Of a stretch of DNA of 57,195 nt, positions 1,921 to 52,541 are shown one piece after another (position 1 is the stretch's first letter; each line of letters starts with the position of its first letter). This DNA is from Nesterenkonia alkaliphila. Lineage in GTDB: Bacteria > Actinomycetota > Actinomycetes > Actinomycetales > Micrococcaceae. Both the position numbers and the translations under genes were made by a program. The notes beneath the pieces are model-generated. The model was given only the letters and a program-made list of their open reading frames with translations, made no database searches and had not been told where the DNA came from. Where the stretch lies: positions 1 to 57,195 of the forward strand of contig NZ_WRPM01000072.1 in the NCBI RefSeq assembly GCF_009758175.1, given 5' to 3'.

Positions 1921-2577
1921 TCAATCAGTGTGTGAAAACTCTACCTGGACGCGGGCCCGGGCGATGGATTCAAAGGGTATATGTTTCTCCGGGCCCGTTT
2001 TGGGCTTCATGCCCTTTTTGGGCGCGGGGATGATTTCCTGAACGACGACGCCGCCCTGCTGCACCTGTTTCAGCCGGGCAGTGAGTGCCCCAGCCCCCTT
2101 GGCATCCTGCTCCGGTGCATCGGCGCGCAGGTCGATCTCCAGCAGCCTGCCGGTATTGCGCCGGAAGTGTCTGGGTTCGGTCAGCGGCCGGGTGGCACCC
2201 GGGGTGGAGACCTCCAGCTCATAGGTGCTCAGGGCTGCCAGCGGCTCCGCTGCAGCGGCCTCAGCCCCTGCTCCTTCCGCTGCGCCATCTGCCGCAGCGC
2301 TGTCCTCGGCGCTGTCCTTCTCGGCGCTGTCCAGCACCAGCGAGACTGCCTCGGAGAGCGCGGCAAGGGTGTCCAGGTCCACACTGTCTGTGCCCTCGGG
2401 GTAGTCAACCACCAGCTGCAGCACAGTGCGCTCCCCCTGGCCGGTGAGTGTCAGCTCCTCCAGGTAGAGCCCGTGGGCGTTGACCGTGGGTTCGAGCAGG
2501 CCGGCCAGCCGCTCCGCCCGGGGGCCTTTGAACCGGTTGGTCTGAGTTGCGCGCGGTGGGACTGCCATAGCTGCCAT
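1921..2577 (-). CDS. rimP: Ribosome maturation factor RimP, with an acidic insertion
   Basis: RimP assists 30S subunit maturation. The signature [15 protein letters not shown] is at residues 119-133, followed by [13 protein letters not shown], and the C-terminal SH3-like domain is present. At 218 residues it is longer than a usual RimP (about 150-200). The extra length is an Ala/Glu/Asp-rich, low-complexity stretch at residues 85-112, inserted before the conserved motif, and the N-terminus is slightly extended. It heads the nusA operon and diverges from proS. ATG at 2577 is chosen; a second ATG lies three codons downstream. A copy of the ACGACGACGCC motif (2042-2052) reads antisense through its GGVVV codons. 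Confidence 0.93.
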
Positions 2578-2644
2578 TGTGCCAAACTCCTGTCACCTGC
2601 AGGGAACCCCGCTTGGAGCACAGCACTGAGCGGCCCGGCCCGAC

Positions 2645-2650
2645 TAGACT
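2645..2650 (+). promoter_or_regulatory. -10 box of a leaderless proS transcript
   Basis: TAGACT ends exactly 7 bases before the proS ATG, placing the transcription start at or next to the start codon. No Shine-Dalgarno sequence is present. The same geometry recurs at many genes in this window. Confidence 0.6.
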
Positions 2651-2657
2651 GACGGCC

Positions 2658-4514
2658 ATGACCACACGCCTGTCCCATCTTTTCCTGCGCACTCTGCGCG
2701 ATAACCCCGTCGGTGCCGAGGTGGCCAGCCACCAGCTGCTGGTCCGTGCTGGATATATCCGCCAGGCCGGTGCCGGCATCTACTCCTGGCTGCCGCTCGG
2801 ACTGGCCGTGCTGCGCCGGATCGAGGCGATCGTGCGCGAGGAGATGCATGCCATCGGTGCCCAGGAGGTGCACTTCCCGGCACTGCTGCCCAAGGAGCCC
2901 TATGAGGCCACCGGCCGCTGGGCCGAGTACGGCGACGGAATCTTCCGGGTGCCTGACCGCAAGGCTGAGGCGATCACCTACACCGATGAGGAGGGCGAGA
3001 CCCAGCAGGTGCGGCTGCCCAATCATCTCTTGGCACCCACCCATGAGGAGGTGTTCACCCAGCTGGTCAAGGACATCGCTGGCAGCTATAAGGACCTGCC
3101 GCTGAACCTCTATCAGATCCAGACCAAGTACCGGGATGAGGCCCGTCCCCGCGCCGGGCTGCTGCGCGGGCGTGAGTTCATCATGAAGGACGCCTACTCC
3201 TTCTGCCTCACCGAGGAGGACCAGCAGGCCGCCTATGACGCCTACCGCGCCGCCTACCTGCGGATCTTCGAGCGCCTCGGCCTGCCCGTGGTGCCGGTGA
3301 GCGCGCAGTCAGGAGCCATGGGGGGCTCGGCCTCTGAGGAGTTCCTGCACCCCAATCCGGTGGGCGAGGACACCTTCGTGGAGTCACCGGGGGGCTACCG
3401 GGCCAATGTGGAGGCAGTCACCACTGCGGCCCCAGAGCCCATTGACTACGACGACGCCCCACCCGCCCAGGTCCACCACACCCCGGGTACGGACACCATC
3501 GCCACCCTGGTGGAGGCCGCCAATGCCGACCATCCCCGCGCGGACCGCCCGTGGACCGCAGCGGACACCCTGAAGAACGTGGTGGTGGCCGTGATCACTC
3601 CCGAGGGAGACCGCCAGCTGGCCGTGATCGGTGTTCCTGGGGACCGCGAGGTGGACCTCAAGCGGGCCGAGGCCACCCTCGGGGCAGAGCTGGGGATCGA
3701 GGGCGAAGTGCAGCTGGAGGCAGCCACAGAGGCTGATCTGAAGGCCAATCCGGGCCTGGTCCGCGGCTATATCGGCCCCGGTCTCTCCCTGGATGCTCCG
3801 GTGCTGGGCCGGCAGGGCGCCACCGGGATTCCCTATCTGGTGGACCCCCGGATCGTGGCCGGCACCCGGTGGATCACCGGGGCCAATGCTGCCGATCAGC
3901 ATGTGTTCGGACTGGTCGCCGGCCGTGACTTCGGCTGGGACGGCACTATCGAGTCAGTCGTGGTGCGCGACGGCGACCCAGCCCCTGACGGCTCCGGGCC
4001 GCTGACCACCCGGCGCGGTATCGAGATGGGGCACATCTTCATGCTCGGCACCAAATACGCCGAGGCCCTGGGACTGCAGCTGCTCGGCGCCGACGGCAAG
4101 CTGAGCACTGTGACCATGGGCTCCTACGGGTTCGGGGTGACCCGGGCCATGGCCGCTCTGGTGGAGGACAACCATGATGACAAAGGCATCATCTGGCCGG
4201 CCGCAGTAGCACCGGCTGATGTGCACCTGGTGGCCACCGGCAAAGGCGCAGAGATCTTCGAGGCCGCCGAGAAGCTCTCCGCGGAGCTGGAGTCGGCCGG
4301 GCTGAGCGTGATCTACGATGACCGGCCCAAAGTCTCCCCCGGGGTGAAGTTCGGCGATGCCGAGCTGCTGGGAGTGCCTACCATTGTGGTGGTGGGCCGT
4401 GGACTAGCCGAGGGTCTGGTGGAGGTCAAGGACCGGCGCAGCGGGGAGGCTGTGAACGTGGCACTGGATGGGGCCGTGGCGCATCTGGTCCAGCGAGCAC
4501 AATCACTGGCATAG
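2658..4514 (+). CDS. proS: Prolyl-tRNA synthetase (bacterial type)
   Basis: ProS charges tRNA-Pro with proline. The 618-residue product starts [17 protein letters not shown] and carries class II aaRS features: motif 1 region ([23 protein letters not shown]), motif 2 ([27 protein letters not shown]), a central INS editing-type domain (about residues 230-390), motif 3 ([16 protein letters not shown]), and the C-terminal anticodon-binding domain. The reading frame is open 27 codons upstream, but conserved sequence begins at ATG 2658, which also has a -10 box seven bases upstream. It is divergent from rimP. One ACGACGACGCC copy (3448-3458) encodes YDDA in the insertion domain. Confidence 0.96.
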
Positions 4515-4519
4515 GGCGC

Positions 4520-5392
4520 TCACTCGTCTGAGGTCTCATCCTGCGAGCCACCATCGGGGTCTTCGGCTGAGTCCTCCGCCGCGGAGTCTTCCTCCTCGTC
4601 CTCTTCGTCCTCCTGGTCCTCCTCGGGCTCCGGCTCGGGCGCGGTGATCTCCTCACCCACCAGCTCGGAGAGAACTGCGGCGCTCTGGGCCTCCAAGGTG
4701 ACCAGGGCGGCGTCGACTGCTGTCTCCTCATCCTCGGGCTGGGTGCTGAGCACGATCACTGCACCATGGCGCAGCAGCACTGCGAGCTGGCGCTGGTGGG
4801 TATCATCAGTGGTCATCACCCGGCGCACGGCCAGGGCATCCTCGGCGCCGCTGAGCAGCTCGAGCTCGGTGAGCTCGGTCCGGGCCTCTGCGGTGCTCTC
4901 ACCCAGATCGCGGATCACGGTGTGCTCAGCGCAGCGACTGACTCCGGTGCGCTCGGAGGAGAGGTATTCCTCGGCGGCGGCGGTCTCGGCAAAGCTGTAG
5001 ATGACAGTCTGGGTGTCCCCGTCCTCGGCGAGCGCGCCCAGTGCCCCGGTGGGCACCGGCAGCGCAGATGCGGTGACATAGGGCTTGCAGTCGGTAGGGT
5101 CCACCTGCAGGCGCTGCAGTTCCCGGTTGAGATCGCGCAGATGCGGCCACCAGTCATCAGTGTCGCTGATATGTGCTGCTCCGGTGCGTTCCTCAAGCGC
5201 CTGGCGCATCTGCTCATGATCCAGCTGCTCTCCCGCAGGCTCCGGGGCTGAGGCCTGAGCCTCATCCACGGAGCTGTCCAGGGAGCCGCCGCCGAGCGGG
5301 CCCTCATCCTGCTGCGGGTCAGCCTCACAGCTGCTGAGCATCAGCAGCGCGAGGGCCAGGCAGAGGACAGCGGTGCGGCGGTCAATTTTCAT
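4520..5392 (-). CDS. Acidic lipoprotein, possible PknH-like sensor-domain protein
   Basis: The 290-residue protein begins with a lipoprotein signal peptide; the lipobox LSSC puts the lipidated Cys near residue 22. The mature part (about 60-230) has two Cys (in PTDCKPY and VSRCAEH) and alternating strands, resembling the extracellular PknH-like sensor fold of actinobacterial lipoproteins, but this is a weak impression. The last ~45 residues are almost all Glu/Asp/Ser. It is convergent with proS (5-base gap) and follows the OmpA-domain gene. GATACT lies 8 bases before the ATG, so the mRNA may be leaderless. Function unknown. Confidence 0.75.
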   Translation of the reverse strand: MKIDRRTAVLCLALALLMLSSCEADPQQDEGPLGGGSLDSSVDEAQASAPEPAGEQLDHEQMRQALEERTGAAHISDTDDWWPHLRDLNRELQRLQVDPTDCKPYVTASALPVPTGALGALAEDGDTQTVIYSFAETAAAEEYLSSERTGVSRCAEHTVIRDLGESTAEARTELTELELLSGAEDALAVRRVMTTDDTHQRQLAVLLRHGAVIVLSTQPEDEETAVDAALVTLEAQSAAVLSELVGEEITAPEPEPEEDQEDEEDEEEDSAAEDSAEDPDGGSQDETSDE

Positions 5393-5417
5393 CGCTTCTC
5401 AGTATCCCCGCGGAGCA

Positions 5418-5448
5418 GGTCCCCGGCAGGATGCACGCGCCGGGGACC
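5418..5448 (-). terminator. Perfect 10-bp GC-rich hairpin between two envelope genes
   Basis: Arms GGTCCCCGGC (5418-5427) and GCCGGGGACC (5439-5448) pair perfectly across an 11-base loop, 19 bases after the OmpA-domain gene. No U-run follows, so this would be a U-less terminator of the kind reported in actinobacteria, or an mRNA-processing structure. Confidence 0.5.
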
Positions 5449-5466
5449 AGAACCTCTTCGGATCAA

Positions 5467-11075: not shown

Positions 11076-12580
11076 CCGCCCTGCTCATGCTGGCTGGGAT
11101 CCTCATCATGGTGATCGGCATCATCGCCTCGATCGCCCTGCATGAGATCGGCCACCTGCTGCCAGCCAAACTCTTCAAAGTCCGGGTCACCCAGTACATG
11201 GTGGGCTTCGGCCCCACCCTCTGGTCCAAGACCAAAGGCGAGACCGAGTACGGGGTCAAAGCTGTGCCCCTGGGCGGCTATGTGGCGATGATCGGCATGT
11301 ACCCCCCGCCCGAGGCGATTGAGAGCAAAGCGAGCCGGGGGCTCGCGGACGACGACGCCCCGGCTGAATCTGCGGAGCCAGCAGAGCCTCGGGACACCTA
11401 CCTCCAGCAGGTGGGCGCCCAATATGCGGCTCCGCCGATCGAGCGGTCCTCCGCCGCCGAGCGGGTGCCGGAGGAGAAGCAGACGGTGATCTCGCACTCC
11501 ACCGGCATCTTCCAACAGATGTCCCAGGAGGCTCGGGAGGTTGCGGCTGAGGAGCTCAAGCCCGGGGATGAGACCCGGATGTTCTACCGGCTGGCCACCT
11601 GGAAGAAAGTCATCATCATGCTCGGCGGCCCGGCGATGAATGGGCTGATCGCGCTGCTGCTGACCGCCGGGACCATCTCCACCCACGGGATGAACACCAC
11701 AACCACCCAGGTGGCCGATGTCTTTGAGTGCATCACCACCGTGGAGGCCGAGGATGCCGGGGAGTCCCTGGCTGAGCGTGAGTGTACCGCTGATGATCCG
11801 CCGGGGCCCGCCTATGAAGCGGGTCTGCAGCCCGGGGATCAGATTCTCGCTTTCGGCGGCACAGAGGTTCAGGAGTGGGATGAGCTGACCCCACTGATCC
11901 GCGATGCGGCCGGCCAGCAGAGTCAGCTGGTCTATCTGCGCGATGGCGAGCAGCACGCCACCCAGGTCACTCCGATCCTCACCGAACGCCCCGTGGAGGG
12001 CGCCATGGGCCGGGCAGAACGTGACGCAGATGGCGCCCTGGTCACCGAACCTGCCGGGTTCATCGGTGTTGTCAGCCAGACCGAGGTGCAGCGGCAACCA
12101 CCTTGGGAGGCCGGTCCCATGGTGTATGAACAGACCCGGGCGGTGGGCGGCGTCGTACTTACCCTGCCGGCGCGGATGTATGACGTGGCGGTCTCCACCT
12201 TCACCTCAGCCGAGCGCGATCCGGACGGGCCGATGTCTGTGGTGGGTGTGGGCCGGGTGGCCGGGGAGATCTCGGCCCAGGACCAGATCCCCTGGGAGTC
12301 CAGGTTCGCCACTCTGATTTCCCTGGTGGCCGCGGTGAACGTTGCGCTGATGGTGTTCAACCTGATCCCGCTGCTGCCCCTTGACGGTGGTCATGTGGCC
12401 GGGGCGCTCTATGAGTCGCTGCGGCGGCTGTGGGCCAGGCTGCGCGGCAAGCCTGACCCGGGCCCCTTCGACATCTCCAAGCTGCTGCCGCTGACCTATG
12501 TGGTGGCGGTGCTGATGATCGGTATGGGCGCGCTGCTGATCCTGGCCGATATCGTCAACCCGATCAGATTCTTCGAATGA
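11072..12580 (+). CDS. rseP: Site-2 zinc metalloprotease RseP family, with a long insertion
   Basis: RseP-type proteases cut membrane-embedded substrates such as anti-sigma factors. HEIGH at residues 24-28 in the first membrane segment supplies the zinc ligands and the second signature, PLDGGH at 436-441, is near the C-terminus. A PDZ domain (about 245-300; PAYEAGLQPGDQILAFGG) follows. At 502 residues it is longer than the usual 400-450: a hydrophilic, Glu/Ala/Pro-rich insertion occupies roughly residues 75-175, just after the conserved PLGGYVAMIGM. Start overlap with dxr (ATGA) implies translational coupling. One ACGACGACGCC copy (11349-11359) falls inside the insertion. Confidence 0.93.
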   Translation: MTALLMLAGILIMVIGIIASIALHEIGHLLPAKLFKVRVTQYMVGFGPTLWSKTKGETEYGVKAVPLGGYVAMIGMYPPPEAIESKASRGLADDDAPAESAEPAEPRDTYLQQVGAQYAAPPIERSSAAERVPEEKQTVISHSTGIFQQMSQEAREVAAEELKPGDETRMFYRLATWKKVIIMLGGPAMNGLIALLLTAGTISTHGMNTTTTQVADVFECITTVEAEDAGESLAERECTADDPPGPAYEAGLQPGDQILAFGGTEVQEWDELTPLIRDAAGQQSQLVYLRDGEQHATQVTPILTERPVEGAMGRAERDADGALVTEPAGFIGVVSQTEVQRQPPWEAGPMVYEQTRAVGGVVLTLPARMYDVAVSTFTSAERDPDGPMSVVGVGRVAGEISAQDQIPWESRFATLISLVAAVNVALMVFNLIPLLPLDGGHVAGALYESLRRLWARLRGKPDPGPFDISKLLPLTYVVAVLMIGMGALLILADIVNPIRFFE

Positions 12581-15280: not shown

Positions 15281-16291
15281 CGCCGTCTGCTACAGTCACT
15301 GCCCCCACCGGGGTAGCTGACACCGATCTGGCGGCGGACCTCATCGAGAGTGCCCATGATCTCCACCGAATCGTCCAGGGTGATCAGCTCGCCGTCGAAG
15401 TTCCCGGCTGCCACATACTGTTCCGCGGCGATCGCCTGGAACTGCATACCGTGCCCGGCAGCATCTGGTGTGTAGCGCTCCACCACTGCCCCGGCGGCGT
15501 CGTACTGGGTGAACCCGGCGGAGGTGAACCAGAGCCGGTGGATGTCGATCCGGCCCCTAGAGCCCAGAATATGTGCGGTATTGGACCCGGCCGCCCGAGA
15601 GGAGCTCAGGCAGGTGGAGATCGCCCCGGATGCGTGGGTCATCACCACCCCGACCTCCGTGTCGGCACCGGTATCGCCGAGTCGCCCGGAGGCCTGCACA
15701 CTGGTTGGGGGCACCGAGGACGTCCCAGGCGAAGGAGACCGGGTAGACGCCAAGGTCCAGCAGAGCACCGCCGCCGAGCTCAAGTGCGTTGATCCGGTGC
15801 GTGGGATCAGAGCCGAAGGACTGGGCGTGGTCTGCGAAGAGCGCCCGGACCTCGCCGATGGCCCCGGAGGCTATGAGCTGCCGGATCCGGACCATATGCG
15901 GCAGATAGCGGGTCCACATGGCCTCGGTGACCAGCAGGTTCTTGGCACGGGCGGCCTCACGGACCTGCTCCGCCTGGGTCCGGTTGAGCATGAAGGGCTT
16001 CTCCACCAGCACATGCTTTCCGGCCGCAATGGCCAGCATGGTCGGCTCGTAGTGCATCGGATGCGGTGTGGCCACATAGACGATGTCCACTGCATCGTTC
16101 TCCACCAGCTCCTGGTAGGAGCCGTGGGCCTGTGCAATGCCGAACTCAGCGGCGAACTGCTGGGCCGATTGCTGTGAACGGGAGCCCACAGCAACCACCT
16201 GGAGGCCGGCGGAGAGGGCATCTCCAGTGAACTTGCGGGCTATTCCGCCGGTGGCGAGGAGGCCCCAGCGCAGCGCAGGGTGCTCAGTCAG
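15223..16291 (-). pseudogene. Frameshifted Gfo/Idh/MocA-family oxidoreductase
   Basis: Two overlapping frames together make one NAD(P)-dependent sugar-type dehydrogenase. The first encodes LRWGLLATGGIARKF (Rossmann), then VYVATPHPMHYEPTMLAI and GKHVLVEKPFMLN, the EKP motif with the catalytic Lys, ending at DVLGAP. The second continues TSVQASGRLGDTG... to IDIHRLWFT. The switch lies at a run of five G on the plus strand (15707-15711); removing one base restores GAPTSVQA. There is no ATG, GTG or TTG ahead of the Rossmann motif; a CTG at 16289-16291 with GGAG five bases upstream is the best start. Two lesions suggest decay, but a homopolymer sequencing error and a CTG start could also explain it. 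Confidence 0.7.
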
Positions 16292-18395: not shown

Positions 18396-18406
18396 GGCGT
18401 CGTCGT
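18396..18406 (-). repeat. Intergenic copy of the ACGACGACGCC motif (frr-pyrH spacer)
   Basis: This exact copy lies in the 106-bp noncoding spacer between pyrH and frr, so protein coding cannot explain it. The half-sequence AACGACG at 18365-18371 is an inverted partner across a 29-base gap. Confidence 0.6.
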
Positions 18407-21460: not shown

Positions 21461-22042
21461 ATGTCCAGCGCACCGGTGATGACGACGACGCCCCCGGCGC
21501 CTGTGCCCCTGGTGGCCGGTGACCGGCCGCTGTTCTGGGGGCCGCGGCCGCGCAGTGCCCTGCTGGCGCTGCTGATGCTGCTGGCCCTGCTCGGCATGCC
21601 CCCGGCAGCTGCTGAGCACCCCCAATGGCAGCGCCCTGTCCCGGGCGGGCTGGTCCAGGAGTACCAGGCGCCACCGGCTCCGTGGGCGGCCGGGCACCGG
21701 GGCGTGGACCTGGCGGTGCCGGCCGGCGGGGAGGTCCGGTCCCCCGCCGATGGGGTGGTGAGCTTCTCCGGTGCCGTGGTCAACCGTGAGGTGCTCTCCA
21801 TCAACCATGGTGCCGGGTATGTGAGCTCCTTTGAGCCAGTGGAGTCCGAACTCGAGGTCGGGGAGGCGGTGGCTCAGGGGGAGGTGGTGGCAGCCCTGAG
21901 CACCTACGACGACAGCTCCAACCACTGCGACCAACCCTGCCTCCACTGGGGCGTGCGCCTGCACGGGAACTACATCAACCCGCTGCTGATGCTCGGCGAA
22001 CTCGAACCCTCGGTCCTGCTTCCCCTAGCAGGCGGAGATTGA
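21461..22042 (+). CDS. M23-family (LytM-type) peptidoglycan endopeptidase
   Basis: The 193-residue secreted protein has a signal/membrane segment at about residues 30-52 (ALLALLMLLALLGMPPAAA) and a LytM fold. GHRGVDLA contributes the first zinc His and Asp, and CLHWGVRL lies at the position of the second HxH motif. The first His of HxH is Cys here, as in other actinobacterial members beside rpsB, so activity cannot be assumed. ATG 21461 is used; MTTTPP at 21479 is an alternative start. It is divergent from rpsB, a conserved actinobacterial arrangement. A copy of ACGACGACGCC (21482-21492) encodes the TTT residues. Confidence 0.85.
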   Translation: MSSAPVMTTTPPAPVPLVAGDRPLFWGPRPRSALLALLMLLALLGMPPAAAEHPQWQRPVPGGLVQEYQAPPAPWAAGHRGVDLAVPAGGEVRSPADGVVSFSGAVVNREVLSINHGAGYVSSFEPVESELEVGEAVAQGEVVAALSTYDDSSNHCDQPCLHWGVRLHGNYINPLLMLGELEPSVLLPLAGGD

Positions 22043-24496: not shown

Positions 24497-25480
24497 TCAG
24501 TGATAGGTGACAACATGCAGGATCTCATCCCGGGTCCAGTCCTGGCCACGGGCAAAGGCGTCCATGACCTGCGGCAGCTGCTCCAGCGGCGAGCTGCCGG
24601 TCACCAAGGCGTCGAATCGCTCATCAAGCAGGTTCAGCGCTGCTGCCAACCGCGAGCTGCGGCTGCGGCGCAGCCTCCTCGGTGCGGCCACCTGCCCCAC
24701 TTGGCTGGAGATCAGGCGCAGTCGCCGGGCGTGGAAGTCCGCGCCCAGCGGCACCTGCGGCTCTGCCGCCCCGTACCAGGACATCTCCACCAGCACAGCA
24801 TCGTCCCCGGTGATCTCCAGAGCCCGGGCCAGTCCTAAGGCGGTGGCCGAGGTGTGCAGCACGGCATCGTTGTCAGCCTCGGCAGCCTCCGGGCTGACCG
24901 CGTCCAATCCAAGCTGCTGTGCCCGGCGGCGCCGGCCGGGGGCAGTCTCCAGCACCTGCAGCCGCGCAGGAGAAAGCCGCTGCAGCAGCAGGGCGGTCAC
25001 CAACCCCACCAGCCCGGCTCCGACCACCGCTACCCGGTCACCCAGGGTCACCTGAGACTCCCAGACCGCGTTGAGGCCGACCTCAGCGATCCCGGCCAGC
25101 AAGGCGCGCTCACTGGGCATCCCCTCCGGCACCGGGTGACAGTCCGCGCCCGGCACCACCACATGGCTGCGGTGCCCGGCGAGGGTGAACACCCGCTGGC
25201 CCAGCAGCTCCTGCGGCCCCCGGCTCACCCTGCCCACATTGAGATACCCGTGGCTGACCGGGCAGGGCAGCTCACCGAGCTGCTGCGGGGCAGCCATCAG
25301 TGCGGTCACCGTCTCCGGGACCTCGCCACGGTAGATCAGGGTCTCGGTACCCGGGGAGAGCGCCGAGAACTCGGTCTCGATCAGTACCTCTTCAGCGCCC
25401 GGCTCAGGTAGGGCCGTCTCACGCACCCGGGCAGAATAGGGTGCCTCAATCCAGAACTCGTGGGCAGGCGTCGTCGTCAT
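24497..25480 (-). CDS. MDR-superfamily (zinc-type alcohol dehydrogenase-like) oxidoreductase
   Basis: The 327-residue protein has the MDR arrangement: an N-terminal GroES-like domain (EFSALSPGTETLIYRGEVP) and a Rossmann domain with VAVVGAGLVGLVTALLL at about residues 147-163. The position usually occupied by the catalytic zinc Cys is Ser-Pro-Gly-Thr-Glu, as in the BchC-like branch, and the structural four-Cys zinc loop is missing, so zinc use is uncertain. It heads a three-gene minus-strand unit with the PTPS-like protein and a GT4 glycosyltransferase. It carries an ACGACGACGCC copy at its first codons (MTTTP). Confidence 0.82.
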   Translation of the reverse strand: MTTTPAHEFWIEAPYSARVRETALPEPGAEEVLIETEFSALSPGTETLIYRGEVPETVTALMAAPQQLGELPCPVSHGYLNVGRVSRGPQELLGQRVFTLAGHRSHVVVPGADCHPVPEGMPSERALLAGIAEVGLNAVWESQVTLGDRVAVVGAGLVGLVTALLLQRLSPARLQVLETAPGRRRRAQQLGLDAVSPEAAEADNDAVLHTSATALGLARALEITGDDAVLVEMSWYGAAEPQVPLGADFHARRLRLISSQVGQVAAPRRLRRSRSSRLAAALNLLDERFDALVTGSSPLEQLPQVMDAFARGQDWTRDEILHVVTYH

Positions 25481-25530: not shown

Positions 25531-26622
25531 GTGTCCATGAGGCTCTTCATGGACTGCCGTTATGTGCGCACCCGGGTGCATGACGGGATCTCGCGGTACA
25601 CGGCCTCGTTGGTGGCCGCTGCAGCGGATAAGGCCCAGATCACTATGCTGATCAGCGATCCGGCGCAGCTGAGACTGCTGCCGGATCTGCCGCACCTGCA
25701 GATCAGCTCGCCCACCGGGCCGCAGGAGCCGTTTGTGGCCGCCCAGCTCAACCGCCACTGCCCCGATGTGGTCTTCTCCCCCATGCAGACCATGGGCAGC
25801 CTGGGCCGGAGGTATCCGCTGATCCTGACCCTGCACGATCTCATCTACTACCAGCACCGCACCCCACCGCGGAATCTCCCCGCTCCGGTACGGGTGGGCT
25901 GGCGGGCCTACCACCTCAGCTATGCCCCGCAGCGGCTGTTCCTGAACCGAGCCGATGCCGTGGCCACAGTCTCGCAGACCACCGCCGATCTGATGGCCGC
26001 CCACCGGCTCACCAAACGTCAGGTGCATCTGATCCCCAACGCCCCCCAGCCCGTAGACTCCCCGCGCGATCCTGGTCAGACGCCGGCCAAAGAGCTGGTG
26101 TACATGGGTTCGTTCATGGACTACAAGAACGTCCCGGCCCTGATCGCCGGGATGAACCTGCTCCCCGAGTACCGGCTGCACCTGTGCTCCCCCATCGATC
26201 CCGCGCAGCGGGCCCAGCTCAGCGCACTGGCGCAGCGTCCCGGCCAGCTGGTGTTCCACAACAGTGTCAGTGAGGAGCACTACCACCGGCTGCTGCGGCG
26301 GGCCACCGCCCTGGTCACTCTCTCCCGGGCCGAAGGCTTCTGCCTGCCGGTGGTCGAGGCGCTGCGCCACGGCACCCCGGTGATCACCAGCGATCTGCCC
26401 ATCTTCCGGGAGGTCGCAGGGGAGCTCGCCGGCACCCCGGCTGCCCAGACGGTGAGGGACGACGACGCCGCCGGGCTGGCAGCAGCTGTGGCTCGCCTGG
26501 AGAGCCGGGAGACTTTCAGTGCGGCCAGCAGAGCCGCGCACCGGCGCAGCATGGCCTATTCCTGGGAGGAATCGGCCCGGCGGCTGATCAGCCTGGCATC
26601 CTCACTTCACCAGTCGAACTGA
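25531..26622 (+). CDS. GT4-type glycosyltransferase
   Basis: The 363-residue protein has GT-B features: HDLIYYQHRTPPR and the helix ADAVATVSQTTADLM in the N-terminal half, then ELVYMGSFMDYKNVPALI and AEGFCLPVVEALRHGTPV with the EX7E motif. It resembles mannosyltransferases of actinobacterial glycolipid or cell-wall glycan clusters. GTG 25531 or ATG 25537 may be the start; neither has a clear ribosome-binding site. It is divergent from the MDR gene (50-bp gap) and its 3' end overlaps the next, convergent glycosyltransferase by 16 bases. One ACGACGACGCC copy (26459-26469) encodes DDDA. Confidence 0.87.
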   Translation: MSMRLFMDCRYVRTRVHDGISRYTASLVAAAADKAQITMLISDPAQLRLLPDLPHLQISSPTGPQEPFVAAQLNRHCPDVVFSPMQTMGSLGRRYPLILTLHDLIYYQHRTPPRNLPAPVRVGWRAYHLSYAPQRLFLNRADAVATVSQTTADLMAAHRLTKRQVHLIPNAPQPVDSPRDPGQTPAKELVYMGSFMDYKNVPALIAGMNLLPEYRLHLCSPIDPAQRAQLSALAQRPGQLVFHNSVSEEHYHRLLRRATALVTLSRAEGFCLPVVEALRHGTPVITSDLPIFREVAGELAGTPAAQTVRDDDAAGLAAAVARLESRETFSAASRAAHRRSMAYSWEESARRLISLASSLHQSN

Positions 26623-27803
26623 TAAGTATCCACCCAGTCGTTTCCGTAGTAGAGCGCCTCATAGGAGGCCATAGTCTTGCCGATGGCGTGCTGATTGGCC
26701 TTCTCCCGGCTGACCGCGCCCATCGCCGCCCGCTCCACGGGGGATGCGCTGAAGATCTTGTTCAGCTGCTGGGCCAAATGATCGCTGTTATAGGGCTCGA
26801 ACAGGTACCCGTTCTCCCCCTCCACCACCAGATGCGGCAGGGCCAGGGCGTCGGCGAGCACCACCGGCTTGCCTGCGCTCATCGCCTCCAGTGAGACCAG
26901 CGACTGCAGTTCGGCGGTGCCGGGCTGGCAGAACACGTCCGCTGCCAGATAGGCCTCACGGAGGGCGGCGTCGTCGATGTGGCCACGGAAGAGGATCCGC
27001 CCCTCCAGCCCCAGATCGGCGGCCTGCTGGCGCAGCCGGTCCCGCTGCTCGCCATCGCCCACGATCTCCGCGGTGATCTGCAGGGCCGGATCAGTCTTGG
27101 CCACCGCATCAATGAGCACATCCACGTTCTTCTCCACCGCCAGCCGGCCCACGAACAGCACTGTGGGCTTCTCCCGGGCGGGGATGGCCTCCCCCGGTCG
27201 GGGACTGTAGTAGTTCACGTCGATCCCGTTGGACAGCGGCAGCACCTGGTCGAATCCGCCCTTGGCCTTCATGGTCTCCGCTGCCAGCGGGGTGGGGGTG
27301 GTGACCACCGAGGCTTTGCCCATCAGCCGGCCCATATCCCGCCAGGAGTTGCGGGAGACGATGTTCTTGAACCATTGCGGGAACGGCAGGAAAGGGTCCA
27401 GGTTCTCTGGCATGAAGTGGTTGGTGGCGATCAGGCGCACCCGGGCGGCTTCAGCTGCCAGGATCGCTGCCTTGCCGATCATGTAGTGGCACTGTACATG
27501 GATCACATCGGGCTGGACCTGGCTCACCAACCGGCGCATGGCCGGTTCCACCAGCTGCGGCAGGCACAGCCGGAAGTACTCGTGGGTGGGGGCCTTGAAG
27601 GAGCGGAACCGGTGGATGGTGGCCTCCTCCCGGTGCTCCACGGTGTCCGGACCCGGCCCGGGGCGGGCAGCGGCGATGTGGACCTGATGCCCGCGGGCGC
27701 TCATATGCTTGGCCAGCCGGTAGCCGAACACGGCTGCCCCGTTGACATCGGGGGGGTAGGTGTCGGCGGCGATGAGTACGGTCAGCGGCTTGAGCTCGCT
27801 CAC
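26607..27803 (-). CDS. GT4-type glycosyltransferase paired with a phospholipid synthase
   Basis: The 398-residue protein begins with the GT4 signature LIAADTYPPDVNGAAVFGYRLAKHM, has DVIHVQCHYMIGKAAI and VTTPTPLAAETM, and in the C-terminal half FVGRLAVEKNVDVLIDA, IVGDGEQRDRL and ELQSLVSLEAMSAGKPVV with the EX7E motif. It resembles mannosyl/glucosyltransferases acting on diacylglycerol or phosphatidylinositol. Its GTG start overlaps the stop of the CDP-alcohol phosphatidyltransferase (GTGA), so a glycolipid acceptor made by that enzyme is a reasonable inference. Substrates are not shown by sequence. Confidence 0.88.
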   Translation of the reverse strand: MSELKPLTVLIAADTYPPDVNGAAVFGYRLAKHMSARGHQVHIAAARPGPGPDTVEHREEATIHRFRSFKAPTHEYFRLCLPQLVEPAMRRLVSQVQPDVIHVQCHYMIGKAAILAAEAARVRLIATNHFMPENLDPFLPFPQWFKNIVSRNSWRDMGRLMGKASVVTTPTPLAAETMKAKGGFDQVLPLSNGIDVNYYSPRPGEAIPAREKPTVLFVGRLAVEKNVDVLIDAVAKTDPALQITAEIVGDGEQRDRLRQQAADLGLEGRILFRGHIDDAALREAYLAADVFCQPGTAELQSLVSLEAMSAGKPVVLADALALPHLVVEGENGYLFEPYNSDHLAQQLNKIFSASPVERAAMGAVSREKANQHAIGKTMASYEALYYGNDWVDTYQFDW

Positions 27804-31011: not shown

Positions 31012-31022
31012 GGCGTCGTCGT
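31012..31022 (-). repeat. Intergenic copy of the ACGACGACGCC motif (hsp20 leader)
   Basis: An exact copy lies 19 bases downstream of the HAIR element in noncoding DNA before hsp20. It shares its flank (AGAACGACGACGCC on the minus strand) with the other intergenic copy at 18396. Confidence 0.6.
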
Positions 31023-34558: not shown

Positions 34559-35326
34559 ATGAGCGCCACCGCCAACTCCCCCGCCGAGCAGCTGAGCCTG
34601 AGCTCCGGGCTGGTCGTGCGCGAACTTACCAACTACGGCGAGCTCAAGCAGGCCTGCCAGCTCTACCGAGGAGTCTTCGGCTACACCGGGGAGGACGAGT
34701 CGCTGAACCCCCGGCTGTTGAGTTCGCTGCGGATCCACTCCGGATCGGTGGTCGGCGCCGTGGACCCCTCCGGCACGGTACTGGCCTTCGCATACGGTTG
34801 GACAGCAGTGGACACCACCGGCGACGACGCCCACACCTACCACTTCTCCCAAGCCGCAGTGGTCTCCTCCACCCTGCAGGGCCAGGGGGTGGGCCGCTCG
34901 CTGAAACGGGTCCAGGCTGCTGTGGCGGCCCGCTCCGGGGCGACCCGGATGCGCTGGACCTATGACCCGCTGCTGGCCCGCAATGCCCACTTCAACCTGG
35001 ATGTGCTGGGTGCCGCGGGCCGCTGGTACACCCCGGATGCCCAGGGCCTGCCGGGTACCGACCGGATCACTGTGGAGTGGAACTTCACCGAGGACACCGC
35101 CCCCTCCCCCTCCCCCGCCGCCGCCGCGCCCCGATTGGCCGTGGGCGAGCTGCATGAGGAGCCGAACACCACGTATCTGGGCCTGCCTGCGGCCAAACCG
35201 GTGGACCCGGACCTGGCCGCCGGTCTGCGCCAGACCATCCGCGGGCTCTTCGAGCGGGGCCTCACCGCAGTCTCCTGCACCCGCACCGACCCCCATACCG
35301 CTGTCTACACTTTCACCAAGGACTGA
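34559..35326 (+). CDS. GNAT-family acyltransferase, candidate D-amino-acid N-succinyltransferase
   Basis: The 255-residue protein is of the COG3375 type: VRELTNYGELKQACQLYRGVFGY at the N-terminus, a GNAT loop LQGQGVGRSLKRVQAAVA, and MRWTYDPLLARNAHFNLDVLGAAGRWY. This family sits next to enolase-superfamily N-acyl amino acid racemases; in Geobacillus kaustophilus the neighbour is succinyl-CoA:D-amino acid N-succinyltransferase (family knowledge). Here the racemase-like gene follows 4 bases later. The inference depends on this context; the D-to-L pathway hydrolase is not in the window. Confidence 0.82.
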   Translation: MSATANSPAEQLSLSSGLVVRELTNYGELKQACQLYRGVFGYTGEDESLNPRLLSSLRIHSGSVVGAVDPSGTVLAFAYGWTAVDTTGDDAHTYHFSQAAVVSSTLQGQGVGRSLKRVQAAVAARSGATRMRWTYDPLLARNAHFNLDVLGAAGRWYTPDAQGLPGTDRITVEWNFTEDTAPSPSPAAAAPRLAVGELHEEPNTTYLGLPAAKPVDPDLAAGLRQTIRGLFERGLTAVSCTRTDPHTAVYTFTKD

Positions 35327-35330
35327 ATCC

Positions 35331-36479
35331 ATGCGCATCGTTGAAGCCGTGATCCATGATGTGGAGCTGCCGCTGGTGCACTCCTTCGAGACCTCCAGCC
35401 ACCGGAAGTCTTCACTGCGCCACCTGCTGGTGCAGCTCACCGACGAGTCCGGGACCACCGGCTGGGGTGAGATCGCCTCCCCGGCCGGGCCCTATTACGC
35501 CGCCGAGACCACCACCATGGCCTGGCACACTGCCACCGAGTACCTGCTCCCGGCGGTGCTCGGCAAGGAGTGGGAGCACCCGGAGCAGATCAACGGCTTC
35601 TTTGCCGCAGTCCGCGGCCACTGGTTCGCCAAGGCTGGCGTGGATATGGCTGCCTGGACGCTGTTTGCCGCCCGGTCCGGTCAACCGCTGGCCCAGACAC
35701 TGGGCGGGACCCGGCAGAGTGTCGTCGCCGGGGTCTCACTGGGGATCGAGCCCAGTATCGACGAGCTGCTGGAACAGGTGGCCAAGCATGTGGACTCCGG
35801 CTATCCGCGGGTGAAGCTCAAGATCGCGCCTTCGGGACCCAATGGGCGCAGCTGGGATGTGGAGCCGGTGAAGGCGGTCCGGGATGCCTATCCGGACCTG
35901 GACGTGCATGTGGACGCCAATGGTGCCTATCCGGGGCGGGACCAGGCTGGGTACGACGACGCCCTGGCCGCCCTCCGTGCCCTGGACCAATACGGGCTCA
36001 CCATGATCGAGCAACCCTTCGCTCCGCGGAACTTCCTGGACTCCGCACGTCTGCAGGCGGAGCTGGACACCCCAGTCTGTCTCGATGAGTCGGTGGAAAC
36101 CCTGGACGATCTGCGCACTGCCCTGGAACTGGCCGCCGGCGGGGTGCTGAATATCAAGGTCTCCCGGATGGGCGGGCTCTCCGCCGCCCGGGCGGCTCAC
36201 GACCTCGCGCAGCAGGCCGGCTGGCCGGTCTGGTGCGGCGGGATGCATGAGTTCGGCATCGGCCGGCTGGCCAACGTGGCGATCAGCTCCCTGCCGGGGT
36301 TCACCCTGCCCTCAGACGTCTCGGCCAGCAATAAGTACTACGCCCAGGACGTGATCACCCCGCCCGTGACTGCTGAGAACGGCGTAGTTCAGGTGCCCGA
36401 GGCCCCCGGGCTGGGCGCCGAGGTGCGCACGGAGCTCATCGCCGCCCACGCCACTCAGGTCCGGACGTTCACGGCCTAG
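35331..36479 (+). CDS. Enolase-superfamily N-acyl/N-succinyl amino acid racemase or o-succinylbenzoate synthase
   Basis: The 382-residue protein is of the MenC/NSAR branch. Active-site residues are visible: acid/base Lys pair V-K162-L-K164, metal ligands D195 (HVDANGAY), E227 (MIEQPF) and D252 (CLDESVE), and K276 in NIKVSRMGG, the opposite base. The branch includes menaquinone OSBS and amino acid racemases; no other men genes are nearby, and the preceding GNAT favours racemase activity. AAGGA precedes the ATG. One ACGACGACGCC copy (35953-35963) encodes YDDA. Confidence 0.88.
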   Translation: MRIVEAVIHDVELPLVHSFETSSHRKSSLRHLLVQLTDESGTTGWGEIASPAGPYYAAETTTMAWHTATEYLLPAVLGKEWEHPEQINGFFAAVRGHWFAKAGVDMAAWTLFAARSGQPLAQTLGGTRQSVVAGVSLGIEPSIDELLEQVAKHVDSGYPRVKLKIAPSGPNGRSWDVEPVKAVRDAYPDLDVHVDANGAYPGRDQAGYDDALAALRALDQYGLTMIEQPFAPRNFLDSARLQAELDTPVCLDESVETLDDLRTALELAAGGVLNIKVSRMGGLSAARAAHDLAQQAGWPVWCGGMHEFGIGRLANVAISSLPGFTLPSDVSASNKYYAQDVITPPVTAENGVVQVPEAPGLGAEVRTELIAAHATQVRTFTA

Positions 36480-39913: not shown

Positions 39914-40867
39914 ATGACTTCGCAGCCTCGTATTGCTTCTGGACATGGACTGGCCACCATTGCCGCTGACGGCACCGTCCTGGACACCTGGTTCCCCTCC
40001 CCCGCACTGGCCCCGCTGAACGAGAACGACGACGCCCCACTGATCTCCCAGCTCAAGGCCGCTGAGGGTGAGGACCCCGACCGCGGCGTCGTACTCAAGG
40101 CCGTCTCAGTGGAGAGCAACCTGGATGAGCAGGCCACCAGCACCGAGGACGTCTGGCTGCGCCTGCACCTGCTCAGCCACCGGCTGGCCACACCGAACAC
40201 CATCAACCTGGACGGTATCTTCGGGCATCTGGCCAATGTGGTGTGGACCAATTTTGGGCCGGCCCCAGTGGCCGGGTTCGAACAGACCCGCCTGAAGCTG
40301 CGCTCCCGGGGGCATGTGACCGTATACGGAATCGATAAGTTCCCCCGCCTGGTGGACTATGTGACCCCCAGCGGGGTGCGGATCGCCGATGCTGACCGGG
40401 TGCGCCTGGGCGCCCATCTGGCCGAGGGCACCACAGTGATGCACGAGGGCTTCATCAACTTCAACGCCGGCACCCTGGGCACCTCGATGGTCGAGGGTCG
40501 GATCTCGGCCGGGGTAGTGGTGGGCGATGGCACCGATGTGGGCGGAGGCGCCTCCATCATGGGCACCCTCTCCGGCGGCGGCAAGGAGAAGATCACCCTG
40601 GGTAAGCGGGTGCTGCTGGGTGCCAACTCCGGGGTGGGCATCAGCCTGGGTGACGACTGTGTGGTGGAGGCAGGGCTCTACATCACCGCCGGCACCAAGG
40701 TCACCGTGCTGAATCGCGAGGGCCAGGTGCGCGGCACTGCCAAGGGTGCCGAACTCTCCGGCTCCACCGGGCTGCTGTTCCTGCGCGACTCGGTGACCGG
40801 CACTGTGCAGGCCCGGCCTCGGGAGAACCAGAAAGTTGAGCTCAACGCCGCCCTGCACGCCAACTGA
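39914..40867 (+). CDS. dapD: 2,3,4,5-tetrahydropyridine-2,6-dicarboxylate N-succinyltransferase
   Basis: DapD succinylates THDP in lysine/diaminopimelate synthesis. The 317-residue product is the actinobacterial type: [19 protein letters not shown] at the N-terminus, [40 protein letters not shown] in the middle, and left-handed beta-helix hexapeptides ([20 protein letters not shown]). ATG 39914 is chosen over 39905 because the -10 box overlaps the latter. dapC lies ~4 kb away. It carries ACGACGACGCC (NDDA, 40026-40036) and the variant GGCGTCGTACT (40085-40095). Confidence 0.95.
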
Positions 40868-43428: not shown

Positions 43429-44544
43429 CTAAGTTAAACGCTGCGCTGCGGAGGTGATGCGCTCATCACTGGCGGTGAGCGCCACCCGGATGTACCCCTG
43501 GCCGGCCTCACCGTAGAAAACACCGGGGCCCACCAGGATGCCGCGCTCGGCCATGCCGCTCACCAGCTCCCAGGTGCCCACAGGATGTTCATCTGCCCCT
43601 GATGCGGCCCGGCACCAGAGGTAGAGCCCAGCCTGGGAGTGCTCCACGGCAAACCCTGCGGCCTCCAGGGCAGGTTTCAGCACGGCACGACGCCGCCGGT
43701 ACAGCTCACGCTGGGCACTCACATGCACGTCATCACTGACTGCCGCTGCCAGAGCCGCCTGGACCGGGGCAGGCATGATCATTCCCGCGTGCTTGCGGGT
43801 GTTCACCAGATTGCCGATCAGCTCCGGACAGCCAGCGGCAAAGGCAGCCCGGTAGCCGGCCAGATTGGACTGCTTGGAGACGCTGTAGACCGCCAGGAGG
43901 CCCTGGTGGGAGCTGCCGGCGACCTGCGGGTCGAGGATGGAGGGCACCTGCTGCACCTCCCAGGGCAGTTCCGCATAGCACTCATCGGAGGCCACCACGG
44001 CCCCGATCCGGCGGGCCAGCTGAACTGCAGAGGCGAGCCGGGCGGCGTCGTCGACTCTTCCGGTGGGATTTCCCGGTGAGTTCAGCCAGATCAGCTTCAC
44101 CCGGCTCAGCGTCTGTTCATCGAGACTGTGCAGGTCATCGGTGGCCAGGGACTGCGCCCCCGCGATCCGGGCGCCCATCTCATAGGTGGGATAGGCGATC
44201 CGCGGGTAGACCACGATGTCTTCAGGCCCCAGACCCAGCAGTGTGGGCAGCCAGGCCACCAGCTCCTTGGAGCCGATAGTGGGCAGGATATTGGCCGGAT
44301 CCAGGCCCGGGACCCCGCGGCGCCGGGCGAACCAGTCCGCGATCGCCTCGCGCAGCCGTGCCGTGCCGTGGGTGGTGGGGTAGCCGGGCGCATCTGCGGC
44401 GGAGCTCAGAGCCCGCTGGATCACCTCAGGGGTGGGGTCCACCGGGGTGCCGATGGAGAGGTTCACCACGCCCTGGGGATGCTGCTCAGCGAGCTCCCGG
44501 TATGGGGCCATCGCCTCCCAGGGATATTCAGGCAGGGTCAACAC
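43429..44544 (-). CDS. dapC: Succinyldiaminopimelate transaminase
   Basis: The 371-residue PLP enzyme is an aspartate-aminotransferase fold type I protein: YREL...VVNLSIGTPVDPTPEVIQ at the N-terminus, IWLNSPGNPTGRV, VASDECYAEL, and the PLP Lys in SVSKQSNLAGYR. The N-terminal LPEYPWE and its place beside fdxA, near dapD, match the actinobacterial DapC in lysine and diaminopimelate synthesis. GTG start with GGAGG seven bases upstream. fdxA lies 107 bases upstream on the same strand. Confidence 0.88.
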   Translation of the reverse strand: MLTLPEYPWEAMAPYRELAEQHPQGVVNLSIGTPVDPTPEVIQRALSSAADAPGYPTTHGTARLREAIADWFARRRGVPGLDPANILPTIGSKELVAWLPTLLGLGPEDIVVYPRIAYPTYEMGARIAGAQSLATDDLHSLDEQTLSRVKLIWLNSPGNPTGRVDDAARLASAVQLARRIGAVVASDECYAELPWEVQQVPSILDPQVAGSSHQGLLAVYSVSKQSNLAGYRAAFAAGCPELIGNLVNTRKHAGMIMPAPVQAALAAAVSDDVHVSAQRELYRRRRAVLKPALEAAGFAVEHSQAGLYLWCRAASGADEHPVGTWELVSGMAERGILVGPGVFYGEAGQGYIRVALTASDERITSAAQRLT

Positions 44545-45554: not shown

Positions 45555-47477
45555 TCAGGCTGCTGATGCCTGCTTCTTGCGGCGGCCGGCCTTCATCCGC
45601 TCAGAGCTGTCCAGGATGACTTTGCGGATGCGGATGGATTCGGGGGTGACCTCCACGCATTCGTCATCGTTGGCGAATTCCAGGGACTCCTCCAGCGTCA
45701 GCTTCAGCGGTGGGGTGAGCCCCTCGAAGCTGTCAGCGGAGGCGGCGCGCATATTGGTGAGCTTCTTCTCCTTGGTGATGTTGACTTCCATATCCTCGTT
45801 GCGGGAGTTGATGCCCACCACCTGACCCTCGTAGACCTCGGAGGTGGCCTCGACGAAGAACGTGCCGCGCTCCTGGAGGTTGATCATGGCGAATGGGGTG
45901 GCCACACCGGCCCGGTCGGCCACCAGGGAGCCGGAGCTGCGGTATTCGATCTCGCCCTTCCACGGCTCGTAGCCGGCGGCGTAGCTGGAGGCGATGCCTG
46001 CTCCGCGGGTGATGGTCAGGAAGGTGGTGCGGAAACCGATCAGGCCGCGGGCAGGGACGCTGAACTCCATGCGGACCCAGCCTGAGCCGGAGTTGGACAT
46101 GGTGGTCATAGTGCCCTTGCGGGCGGCCAGCAGCTGAGTGATCGCGCCCATGTACTCCTCGGGGGCGTCGATGGTCATGGCTTCCATGGGCTCATGCAGC
46201 TTGCCGTCGATCTCCTTGGTGACCACCTGGGGCTTGCCCACGGTGAGCTCGAAGCCTTCGCGGCGCATCTGCTCCACCAGGATGGCCAGGGCCAGCTCGC
46301 CGCGGCCCTGCACCTCCCAGGTGTCGGGCCGCTCAGTGGGCAGCACCTTGATGGAGACGTTGCCGATGAGTTCCTTGTCCAGGCGGTCCTTGACCTGGCG
46401 GGCGGTGACCTTAGCGCCCTTGACCCGGCCGGCCATGGGTGAGGTGTTGATACCGATGGTCATGGAGATGGCTGGATCGTCCACCACGATGTTCGGCAGC
46501 GGCTTGGGGTTCTCCAGGTCGGTCAGAGTCTCGCCGATCATGATGTCGGAGATGCCGGCCACTGCCACGATCTCGCCGGGGCCTGCGGACTCGGCGGGCA
46601 CCCGCTCCAGGCCCTTGGTGGCCAGCAGCTCGGTGATCTTTACGGTCTTGGTGGTGCCGTCCTTGCGGGCCCAGGCCACCTGCTGGTTCTTGCGCAGGGT
46701 GCCGTTGAACACGCGCAGCAGCGCCAGCCGGCCCAGGAATGGGGAGGCATCCAGGTTTGTGACGTGGGCCTGGAGGACCTCGGCGTCGTCGTAGGTGGGA
46801 GCCGGGACGTGTTCCAGGATGGTCTCGAAGAGCGGCTCGAGATCCTCGTTCGCCGGCAGACCGCCGTCTGCGGGCTGCTCAGCGGAGGCGCGGCCCGCTT
46901 TGCCCGAGGCGTAGACAATGGGCAGATCAAGCACGGCGTCCACGTCCAGCTCCGGGTTCTCCTCGGCCACATCAGAGGCCAGGCCCAGCAGCAGGTCCAT
47001 CGTGTCAGAGACCACCCCGTCGATGCGGGCATCGGGCCGGTCAGTTTTGTTGACCACCAGGATCACCGGAAGCGAGGCCTGCAGGGCCTTGCGCAGCACA
47101 AAGCGGGTCTGCGGCAGGGGCCCCTCGGAGGCGTCCACCAGCAGCACCACACCGTCCACCATGGACAGGCCGCGCTCGACCTCACCGCCGAAGTCGGCGT
47201 GGCCGGGGGTGTCGATGATGTTCATGGTCACCGACTCGGCTTGGGCGATCCGGGTGGCGGCCGGGCCGTTGTAGAACACGGTGGTGTTCTTGGCCAGGAT
47301 GGTGATGCCCTTCTCCTTCTCCAGGTCACCGGAGTCCATCACCCGGTCTTCGAGGTCGCCGTGGCCGCCGACTGCTTTGGTCTGGCGGAGCATGGCGTCG
47401 ACCAGGGTCGTCTTGCCGTGGTCGACGTGGGCGACGATCGCGACATTGCGCAGATCATTGCGTGACACAGTGCTCAT
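45555..47477 (-). CDS. typA: Ribosome-associated translational GTPase TypA/BipA
   Basis: TypA is an EF-G-like GTPase that binds ribosomes and supports assembly and stress adaptation. The 640-residue product shows [16 protein letters not shown] (G1), [14 protein letters not shown] (G3), [10 protein letters not shown] (G4), and the TypA-specific C-terminal domain ([26 protein letters not shown]). ATG 47477 is used; no good ribosome-binding site is seen, and an in-frame TTG at 47498 is possible. A copy of ACGACGACGCC (46782-46792) encodes YDDA. Confidence 0.96.
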
Positions 47478-47989: not shown

Positions 47990-47994
47990 TGCGG

Positions 47995-51445: not shown

Positions 51446-51464
51446 AAGCGACGCTAGGCCAACC

Positions 51465-52541
51465 TCACTGCCGCTCAAAGATGATGTAGCCGTAGTCCCA
51501 GTCCAGGAAGAAATGGCTCTCGCCGAGCTCACTGAGCTCACCTTCGAACTCGCCCAGCTGCAGACTCTCCGCCGCCTCCGCCCAATCCAAGTCGGCGCGG
51601 AAGGGCTCCAGCTCCGCGGTCTCCAGGTTCACCGCGCTGATCCGATGAGGGCTGCCCGGAGTGTCCATCTCCCGACCGTGGACCACCAGCAGTTCGTTCT
51701 CGCCCCGGTTCTGCACCGCGCTGAGGTTCATCACCGAGCGCCATGCATTGGGGTAGTCCTCCTGGTACCGGGAAGGCTGGAAGCCGCCCTCCAGGCGGAT
51801 GCACTCCGGGTCCACCTCGGGGTCCTGCTCCACGATCACCAGGTCAGTGTCGCCGCGCACGGTGGGAGTCTGCAGGATCATCCGGCCCTCATGGGCTCCC
51901 ACGCCCCGGAGCACCGGCTCCCGGTCCTCCCACGCCTCTCGATCCGGATGCTCCACTGCCGCGCTGATCGCCACCTGCCCGGAGGCCGGGTCCACCAGTG
52001 AGACCCGGTCTGTACTGGTCCAGTCCTCGAGATGCTCCCCCACGAGCACTGCATCACCGGCGGGCACTGCGGAGAACTGTGCGCGATTGTGCATCCAGCC
52101 CCCGAAGGCGCCGTAGGTGGGCTCAGCCCCATGCTCCTGGCCCAGTTCTGCGACTTCCTCGAAGAAGGTCTCCACTGCGGCGTCGTCGTAGTCTCCATGC
52201 TGGGCAGCAGCGGCAGTTACAGTTTCTGTGAACCCTGCCCAGTCCTCGAAAACCTCCTGCGGGACACCGGTACCGCGCCAGACCTGCTCGGAGGCCTCCG
52301 GTGGGTGCTCGCCTGGGTGGACGTACTCCCCGCAGGTCCACCCCAGAGCGTCGGTGAGACCACTCTGGCGTGGACCGTCCGAGATGATGAACGCGGTGCT
52401 GATCACAGCAGCACTGACCAGGATCACTGCAGCGGTCCGCTTGCGGCCCCACCGCTTGCGCTTCTCCTGGGCTGGAGCCATCCAGTCACGGCTGCCTATG
52501 CGCTGCGCAGCGTCAGCTGGGCTGCTGTGCTCCTGACTCAT
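51465..52541 (-). CDS. Membrane-anchored extracellular protein of unknown function
   Basis: The 358-residue protein has a hydrophilic basic N-terminus, one membrane segment (residues 36-54) and a ~300-residue extracellular part with aromatic- and acid-rich repeats (VSLVDPASGQVAISAAVEHP, FEGELSELGESHFF) that suggest a beta-propeller-like fold. It is convergent with the permease gene (19-bp gap) and lies 15 bases downstream of the ABC ATPase gene on the same strand, so it may be the last gene of that operon. It carries an ACGACGACGCC copy (52179-52189). Confidence 0.7.
   Translation of the reverse strand: MSQEHSSPADAAQRIGSRDWMAPAQEKRKRWGRKRTAAVILVSAAVISTAFIISDGPRQSGLTDALGWTCGEYVHPGEHPPEASEQVWRGTGVPQEVFEDWAGFTETVTAAAAQHGDYDDAAVETFFEEVAELGQEHGAEPTYGAFGGWMHNRAQFSAVPAGDAVLVGEHLEDWTSTDRVSLVDPASGQVAISAAVEHPDREAWEDREPVLRGVGAHEGRMILQTPTVRGDTDLVIVEQDPEVDPECIRLEGGFQPSRYQEDYPNAWRSVMNLSAVQNRGENELLVVHGREMDTPGSPHRISAVNLETAELEPFRADLDWAEAAESLQLGEFEGELSELGESHFFLDWDYGYIIFERQ

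Follow-up and report, generated by a model that had tools for sequence, protein, structure and literature searches.

Motif copies in the window

The window, by which we mean the whole stretch of Nesterenkonia alkaliphila DNA that was analysed (57,195 nucleotides), carries rimP, a ProRS-like class II tRNA synthetase gene, genes for M50 and M23 peptidases, a glycosyltransferase and an MR_MLE-family protein, a dapD-like gene and typA/bipA. Copies of an 11-mer, ACGACGACGCC, and of a second form, ACGACGCCGCC, lie within and between these genes (Table 1). A first-pass annotation had placed 12 exact copies of ACGACGACGCC here on mixed strands, and its coordinates and strands are all correct. Its estimate that chance would yield about 0.1 copies was, if anything, generous, as the expectation is 0.02 under a third-order Markov model and dinucleotide shuffles of the window gave a mean of 0.02, with none of 100 shuffles reaching 12. 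Ranking all words of 9-12 bases in the window returned members of the motif as the top words. The preference for A at the first base was likewise reproduced, with sites sharing the last ten bases starting with A in 12 cases, C in 1, G in 1 and T in 2. So was the reported coding context: seven copies read xDDA, two (21482 and 25467) read MTTTP directly after a start codon, one is antisense in rimP and two are intergenic. Only at 40026..40092 do two copies in the window face each other at a distance below 80 bases. With 12 copies in its 57 kb, the window is roughly 1.7-fold denser in the 11-mer than its genome as a whole.

Table 1. Motif copies in the window, with strand and gene context.
Feature	Position	Strand	Context
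Overlapping ACGACGACGCC (2042) and ACGACGCCGCC (2045)	2042..2055	+	antisense, inside rimP
Motif copy	3448..3458	+	sense, DDA frame, class II tRNA synthetase gene (ProRS-like)
Motif copy	11349..11359	+	DDA frame, peptidase M50 gene; aligned place in genome G005 is ACGACGCCGCC
ACGACGCCGCC form	12146..12156	-	kept in G005
ACGACGCCGCC form	15493..15503	-	outside called genes
Motif copy	18396..18406	-	intergenic
Motif copy	21482..21492	+	MTTTP just after ATG, M23 peptidase gene
Motif copy	25467..25477	-	MTTTP at start of ORF 24497-25480
Overlapping copies (26459, 26462)	26459..26472	+	DDA frame, glycosyltransferase gene; 26459 kept in G005
ACGACGCCGCC form	26964..26974	-	kept in G005
Motif copy	31012..31022	-	intergenic
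Motif copy	35953..35963	+	DDA frame, ORF 34962-36479 (MR_MLE family); kept in G005
Copy 40026-40036 (+) facing a core copy on the - strand	40026..40092	.	within dapD-like gene
ACGACGCCGCC form	43687..43697	+	kept in G005
ACGACGCCGCC form	44041..44051	-	kept in G005
Motif copy	46782..46792	-	DDA frame, typA/bipA; kept in G005
Motif copy	52179..52189	-	DDA frame, ORF 51465-52541

Individual sites are also shared with relatives. Some 41 kb of the window aligned to the relative G005, at 81.6% identity. Eight of the 19 window sites of either form were not fully aligned; seven of the other 11 are identical in G005, as compared to 18% for all 11-mers, and the site at 11349 is an eighth retained place, but in the other form. 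Starting from G005 instead, 14 of its sites could be aligned, and the window has the identical word at 7 of them. The copy at 3448 has an identical 11-mer at the orthologous place in six of eight aligned relatives' loci. Across 13 rimP regions, the word was kept in 118 of 268 directed comparisons versus 95 of 2029 flank controls; the loci share ancestry and each pair was compared both ways, which makes these counts non-independent. Some orthologous places alternate between the two forms of the motif. We conclude that orthologous motif sites are retained above controls.

Genome-wide excess and its DNA-level origin

The whole assembly (3,318,774 bases in 103 contigs, of which the window is C75) holds 399 copies of ACGACGACGCC, 204 forward and 195 reverse, or 120 per Mb. 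This genome-wide count, a check that the first-pass annotation had proposed, lies above the null set beforehand. The reversed pattern, used as a control, occurred 17 + 17 times (34 copies). This control is too lenient because the baseline across the class, as surveyed in 393 genomes, is commonly about 10-40 copies per Mb, and, measured against a typical high-GC actinobacterium, the 11-mer is really several-fold in excess rather than 12-fold as the control would have it.

For finer counts we used a 449-kb sample consisting of 20 stretches of the genome plus the window, the place where the motif was first noticed; without the window, the sample has 48 copies in 392 kb, which is the genome-wide rate. 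The full sample contains 60 copies, versus 0.16 expected from a third-order and 4.7 from a fifth-order Markov model. Single-base neighbours of the 11-mer occurred 0-12 times each, save for the change of A to C at position 7, which yields ACGACGCCGCC and was found 70 times in the 449 kb versus 0.63 expected. Position 7 can thus be A or C, and the 11-mer represents one version of a better, two-form motif, ACGACGMCGCC, where M is A or C. Upstream of 129 copies in the genome, G was favoured at -4 (0.52) and A at -3 (0.65). Thus, the 11-mer as originally noted is real, but its fuller form is ACGACGMCGCC with a G/A preference at -4/-3. The motif differs from its own reverse complement and hence is non-palindromic. 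There are about 118 distinct sites in the sample, and each stretch, the window included, has at least three copies of ACGACGMCGCC.

The same sample contained other over-represented 8-mers, CTCGGTGA (144 copies versus 38 expected) and CACTGTGG (84 versus 15). Their strand imbalance per stretch is 0.38 and 0.52, respectively, versus 0.20 for ACGACGCC, and they could be polar signals. Stretch L015 of the sample, from contig C21, has a CRISPR-like array at 1272-2746, with 24 repeats containing GAGATTCTCAAC and unique spacers.

With genes called by a simple codon-score caller rather than taken from annotation, the 60 copies of the 11-mer in the sample fall into 37 sense, 15 antisense and 8 intergenic, with all six frames represented. 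Intergenic copies are not enriched, as they make up 8 of the 60 while called genes leave 15.5% of the bases uncovered. Counted gene by gene, there were 38 sense and 15 antisense copies, whereas 60 synonymous-codon shuffles gave means of 7.6 (maximum 13) and 0.95 (maximum 4). A set of 11 Nesterenkonia and Garicola loci, which share ancestry, had 42 copies versus 0.39 expected, 18 of them antisense versus 0.6. There was no such excess in 15 loci that we take to be mainly from Streptomycetaceae (2 copies versus 2.2 expected), and 15 loci that are presumably mainly from Intrasporangiaceae had 4 versus 2.7. Based on the codon shuffles, the off-frame copies and the outgroup loci, we rejected coding as the sole cause. 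The initial statement that coding cannot explain the motif is right to that extent, but overstated in that the Asp-Asp-Ala frame adds to the count, with 29 of the 37 sense copies. The proposed DNA-level signal is borne out by antisense and off-frame copies far above the synonymous-codon shuffles: the signal resides in the DNA, not in the protein.

Replication leaves no imprint on the orientation of the motif. We placed origins from dnaA and assumed the terminus to lie opposite. On the closed chromosome of G172, which has dnaA at base 667 and all ten sampled stretches on one arm, 26 copies were leading and 38 lagging; G212 had 21 leading and 15 lagging copies, under the same assumption about the terminus. 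Neighbouring copies in the N. alkaliphila sample had the same orientation in 15 cases and opposite orientations in 27. An apparent one-strand run in the G172 site list was rejected as a listing artefact, as the sampled stretches are mixed. Chi- or KOPS-like polarity is therefore absent, as the first-pass annotation had argued for KOPS from the mixed orientation alone.

Dialects and paired copies among relatives

All 30 genomes in a survey of the genus hold the 11-mer, with 30 to 399 copies. The eight nearest relatives, with TypA identities of 91-96%, have about 66-116 copies per Mb. Ranked by the same protein, the 21 other genomes of the genus have about 31-53 per Mb, except for G014 with 11 and G009 with 98; Nesterenkonia G009 is an exception to the agreement of density with relatedness. 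By RimP, N. ebinurensis is closest among the named relatives (73%). Among named loci, L050 of Nesterenkonia alba is the densest: its 20.5 kb contain the 11-mer 8 times. Across the family (197 genomes in 32 genera), the count ranges from 1 to 521.

We also counted words without bias in samples from relatives, whose stretches began at preset positions or at the start of contigs, G215 excepted. The words that emerged were related to the motif but not the same: G212 had CGACGACGGCG, genus g6 had CGACGACGCCG, G070 had ACGACGACG words and G055 had GTACGACGACGC; the samples of G150, G151, G114 and G118 had no comparable over-represented word. Whole-genome counts of ACGACGACGCC (the CC form) and ACGACGACGGC (the GC form), both made across the 197 family genomes, separate CC-rich genomes, namely N. 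alkaliphila (399/33), G172 (379/40), G195 (521/86) and G215 (340/60), from GC-rich ones, namely G212 (246/850), G071 (137/402), G064 (185/248) and G144 (108/199). The GC-rich G064 and G144 and the CC-rich G195 all belong to genus g6. Neither form exceeded 26 copies in the sampled genomes of genera g12, g22 and g23, and 9 of 12 genomes of g3 have at most 23 CC-form copies, the other three having 64 to 116. Codon shuffles distinguish the forms too. On the antisense strand of genes in the N. alkaliphila sample, ACGACGMCGCC occurred 33 times versus 2.2 expected and ACGACGMCGGC 3 times versus 2.9, while in G212 the antisense counts were 4 versus 0.2 for the CC form and 9 versus 0.4 for the GC form. 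In the motif-poor Nesterenkonia G010, the GC form is moderately over-represented (14 antisense copies versus 2.4). Near-identical dialects thus differ between relatives, and several genera are poor in both forms.

The second contig of G010 (C2, L096-L098, 48,067 bases) is a temperate phage, with 9 of 10 proteins matching phage families that include terminase, portal, tape measure and integrase. In this one resident phage, the GC form is absent versus 3.7 copies expected after correction for composition (P 0.025), and the CC form is absent versus 1.7 expected (P 0.19). Three Arthrobacter phage stretches have 0, 4 and 1 copies of the CC form and 1, 1 and 2 of the GC form; phage Sonali has 4 CC copies versus 0.5 expected.

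Where copies of the motif lie close together, they tend to face each other. Core words within 80 bases, counted in eight genomes, formed 34 convergent, 6 divergent and 10 tandem pairs, where random orientation would give one quarter convergent. We also pooled the counts without G215 because at least 6 of its 10 stretches had been picked for visible sites and face-to-face pairs; its sample, with 49 copies in 200 kb versus 110 per Mb genome-wide, overstates both density and pairing. The remaining seven genomes gave 21 convergent, 5 divergent and 6 tandem pairs. Taking 100 listed G215 sites in position order, a set that the picking of stretches did not influence, we found 7 convergent, no divergent and no tandem pairs within 70 bases. 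The N. alkaliphila sample has only 3 convergent pairs, 2 of them intergenic. All close convergent pairs are predicted to fold into stable hairpins, at -20 to -60 kcal/mol. Half of the convergent pairs (17 of 34) are intergenic; 16 of these have a gene 3' end on one or both sides, including 9 that lie between two 3' ends.

A candidate DNA uptake sequence

In N. alkaliphila, a comEA gene with SLBB and helix-hairpin-helix domains lies next to a comEC gene with Competence and Lactamase_B domains, and there are two matches to TadE. Every one of the 197 family genomes has ComEC, and all 16 that were examined for TadE have it, motif-poor ones included. Because both are present everywhere examined, they fail to separate motif-rich from motif-poor genomes, and we rejected their presence as a discriminator. 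Extraction by a crude motif gave comEA candidates across genera in 6 of 14 loci only. The ComEC-domain open frame varies among genera from about 520 to more than 1000 aa and is short in several g3 genomes, where it perhaps is without the C-terminal domain.

What could maintain such a motif? It may be the binding site of a chromosome-structure or recombination/repair protein, either a non-polar architectural site or a Chi-like one. Copies spaced evenly along the genome on either strand, some of them in the core genes typA, rimP and ProRS, and a constraint at the DNA level would all suit a site of this kind. Chi and KOPS are likewise short over-represented chromosomal words, but they are strand-polar and should track replication direction, which the motif does not. 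Of the candidates in the first-pass annotation, a Chi-like site is thus disfavoured because polarity is lacking, and a nucleoid-protein site stays in contention. Fast dialect change among closely related genomes and near-absence from whole genera would nonetheless be unusual for a housekeeping site, and convergent pairs are not predicted, so we consider a protein site of either type unlikely. A highly iterated motif kept by mutation, methylation or repair bias, with no role in uptake, would resemble HIP1 of cyanobacteria, a very numerous genome-wide word. The motif is also short, very numerous and present in all frames and between genes, and several genera have an excess of ACGACG words that form a family with it. 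However, HIP1 is palindromic and this motif is not, and an 11-base word with one tolerated substitution and reciprocal one-base dialects is more specific than expected of a mutational bias. We therefore regard this explanation as quite improbable.

The intergenic convergent pairs and their nearness to gene 3' ends would suit a transcription-terminator stem or another RNA-level element. Most copies, however, are single, inside genes and in all frames, and the window's one convergent pair sits inside a gene, which makes such an element very improbable as the full explanation. The remaining alternative is a by-product of coding, through frequent Asp-Asp-Ala written with the preferred codons GAC GAC GCC. 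Consistent with it, 29 of the 60 sample copies are in that frame, the DDA tripeptide occurs two times as often as either ADD or DAD, and many high-GC actinobacteria share the class-wide baseline. Against it stand the synonymous shuffles, the outgroup loci and the motif-poor G010, which has the same coding needs, and we find this explanation hardly credible.

We favour the reading, at a probability of about 0.6, that ACGACGMCGCC is the local dialect of a DNA uptake sequence belonging to a Flp/Tad-pilus transformation system. The first-pass annotation had listed an uptake sequence among its candidates, and this one fits best with the lack of polarity, the dialects and the convergent hairpin-forming pairs. 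Several findings count against it: ComEC and TadE occur in motif-poor genomes too, the density is below that of DUS in N. meningitidis, copies in the N. alkaliphila sample are not enriched between genes, depletion from mobile DNA is weak, with one suggestive phage contig, and G009 departs from the agreement of density with relatedness. During competence, motif-bearing fragments would be bound by a putative receptor located at or close to the Flp/Tad pilus, or by ComEA, and bound fragments would enter via ComEC and then recombine. Copies would accumulate, we propose, because tagged alleles enter more often, building up by biased gene conversion where the protein code or an intergenic gap allows. 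Face-to-face copies may be reused as hairpins. A change of receptor would shift the dialect, and lineages that lose the preference would lose the motif. We give about even odds to a broader proposal, that an uptake-sequence system arose separately in the Gram-positive Micrococcaceae, without relation to the systems of Neisseriaceae and Pasteurellaceae and with a putative receptor linked to the Flp/Tad pilus or ComEA. Its one-base dialects, among them ACGACGACGCC, ACGACGACGGC and other ACGACG words, would serve as mating signals at the species level and could change inside a genus; G195 (521/86) versus G064 (185/248) in g6 would be such a switch.

Uptake tags have been described in two families, both Gram-negative, according to the available part of a 2016 review (PMC5031613). 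In the accessible portions of the open-licence literature, we found no uptake sequence described for Actinobacteria or any other Gram-positive group, and a term-level check of the accessible M. luteus competence literature gave no mention of an uptake tag. The exact 11-mer string matches 16 open-licence papers, and the titles listed for them look unrelated. If the uptake reading is true, the motif would represent a third, independent origin of uptake tags, in Gram-positives using Flp/Tad pili, and sequence-specific uptake would need neither an outer membrane nor ComP. It would also provide a new phylogenetic replicate for testing why uptake tags evolve, and would explain transformation barriers in Micrococcaceae and offer a handle on them.

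The motif shares several properties with the DUS of Neisseriaceae, as described in the available part of PMC3630211: a non-palindromic word of 10-12 bases on both strands, in and between genes, with clade-specific one-base dialects and with members that do not have the tag. Inverted pairs are described there as well; here convergent pairs prevail in the relatives, and the N. alkaliphila sample has three. The motif differs in that its sequence is unrelated and its host is a high-GC Gram-positive with Flp/Tad pili; the DUS receptor is ComP. Its density (about 118 sites in 449 kb) is several-fold below that in N. meningitidis, which has roughly 1900 DUS copies (PMC3630211). The USS of Pasteurellaceae is likewise a short genome-wide tag that favours one orientation in reading frames, as do the neisserial tags (PMC2346458, available part) and as does the motif here, with 37 sense and 15 antisense copies. 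The USS is a different word in a different phylum, and its function has been tested. Finally, M. luteus belongs to the same family and has the ComEA, ComEC and Tad genes too; its natural transformation relies on Flp/Tad pili together with ComEA/ComEC, as described in the available part of PMC4322843.
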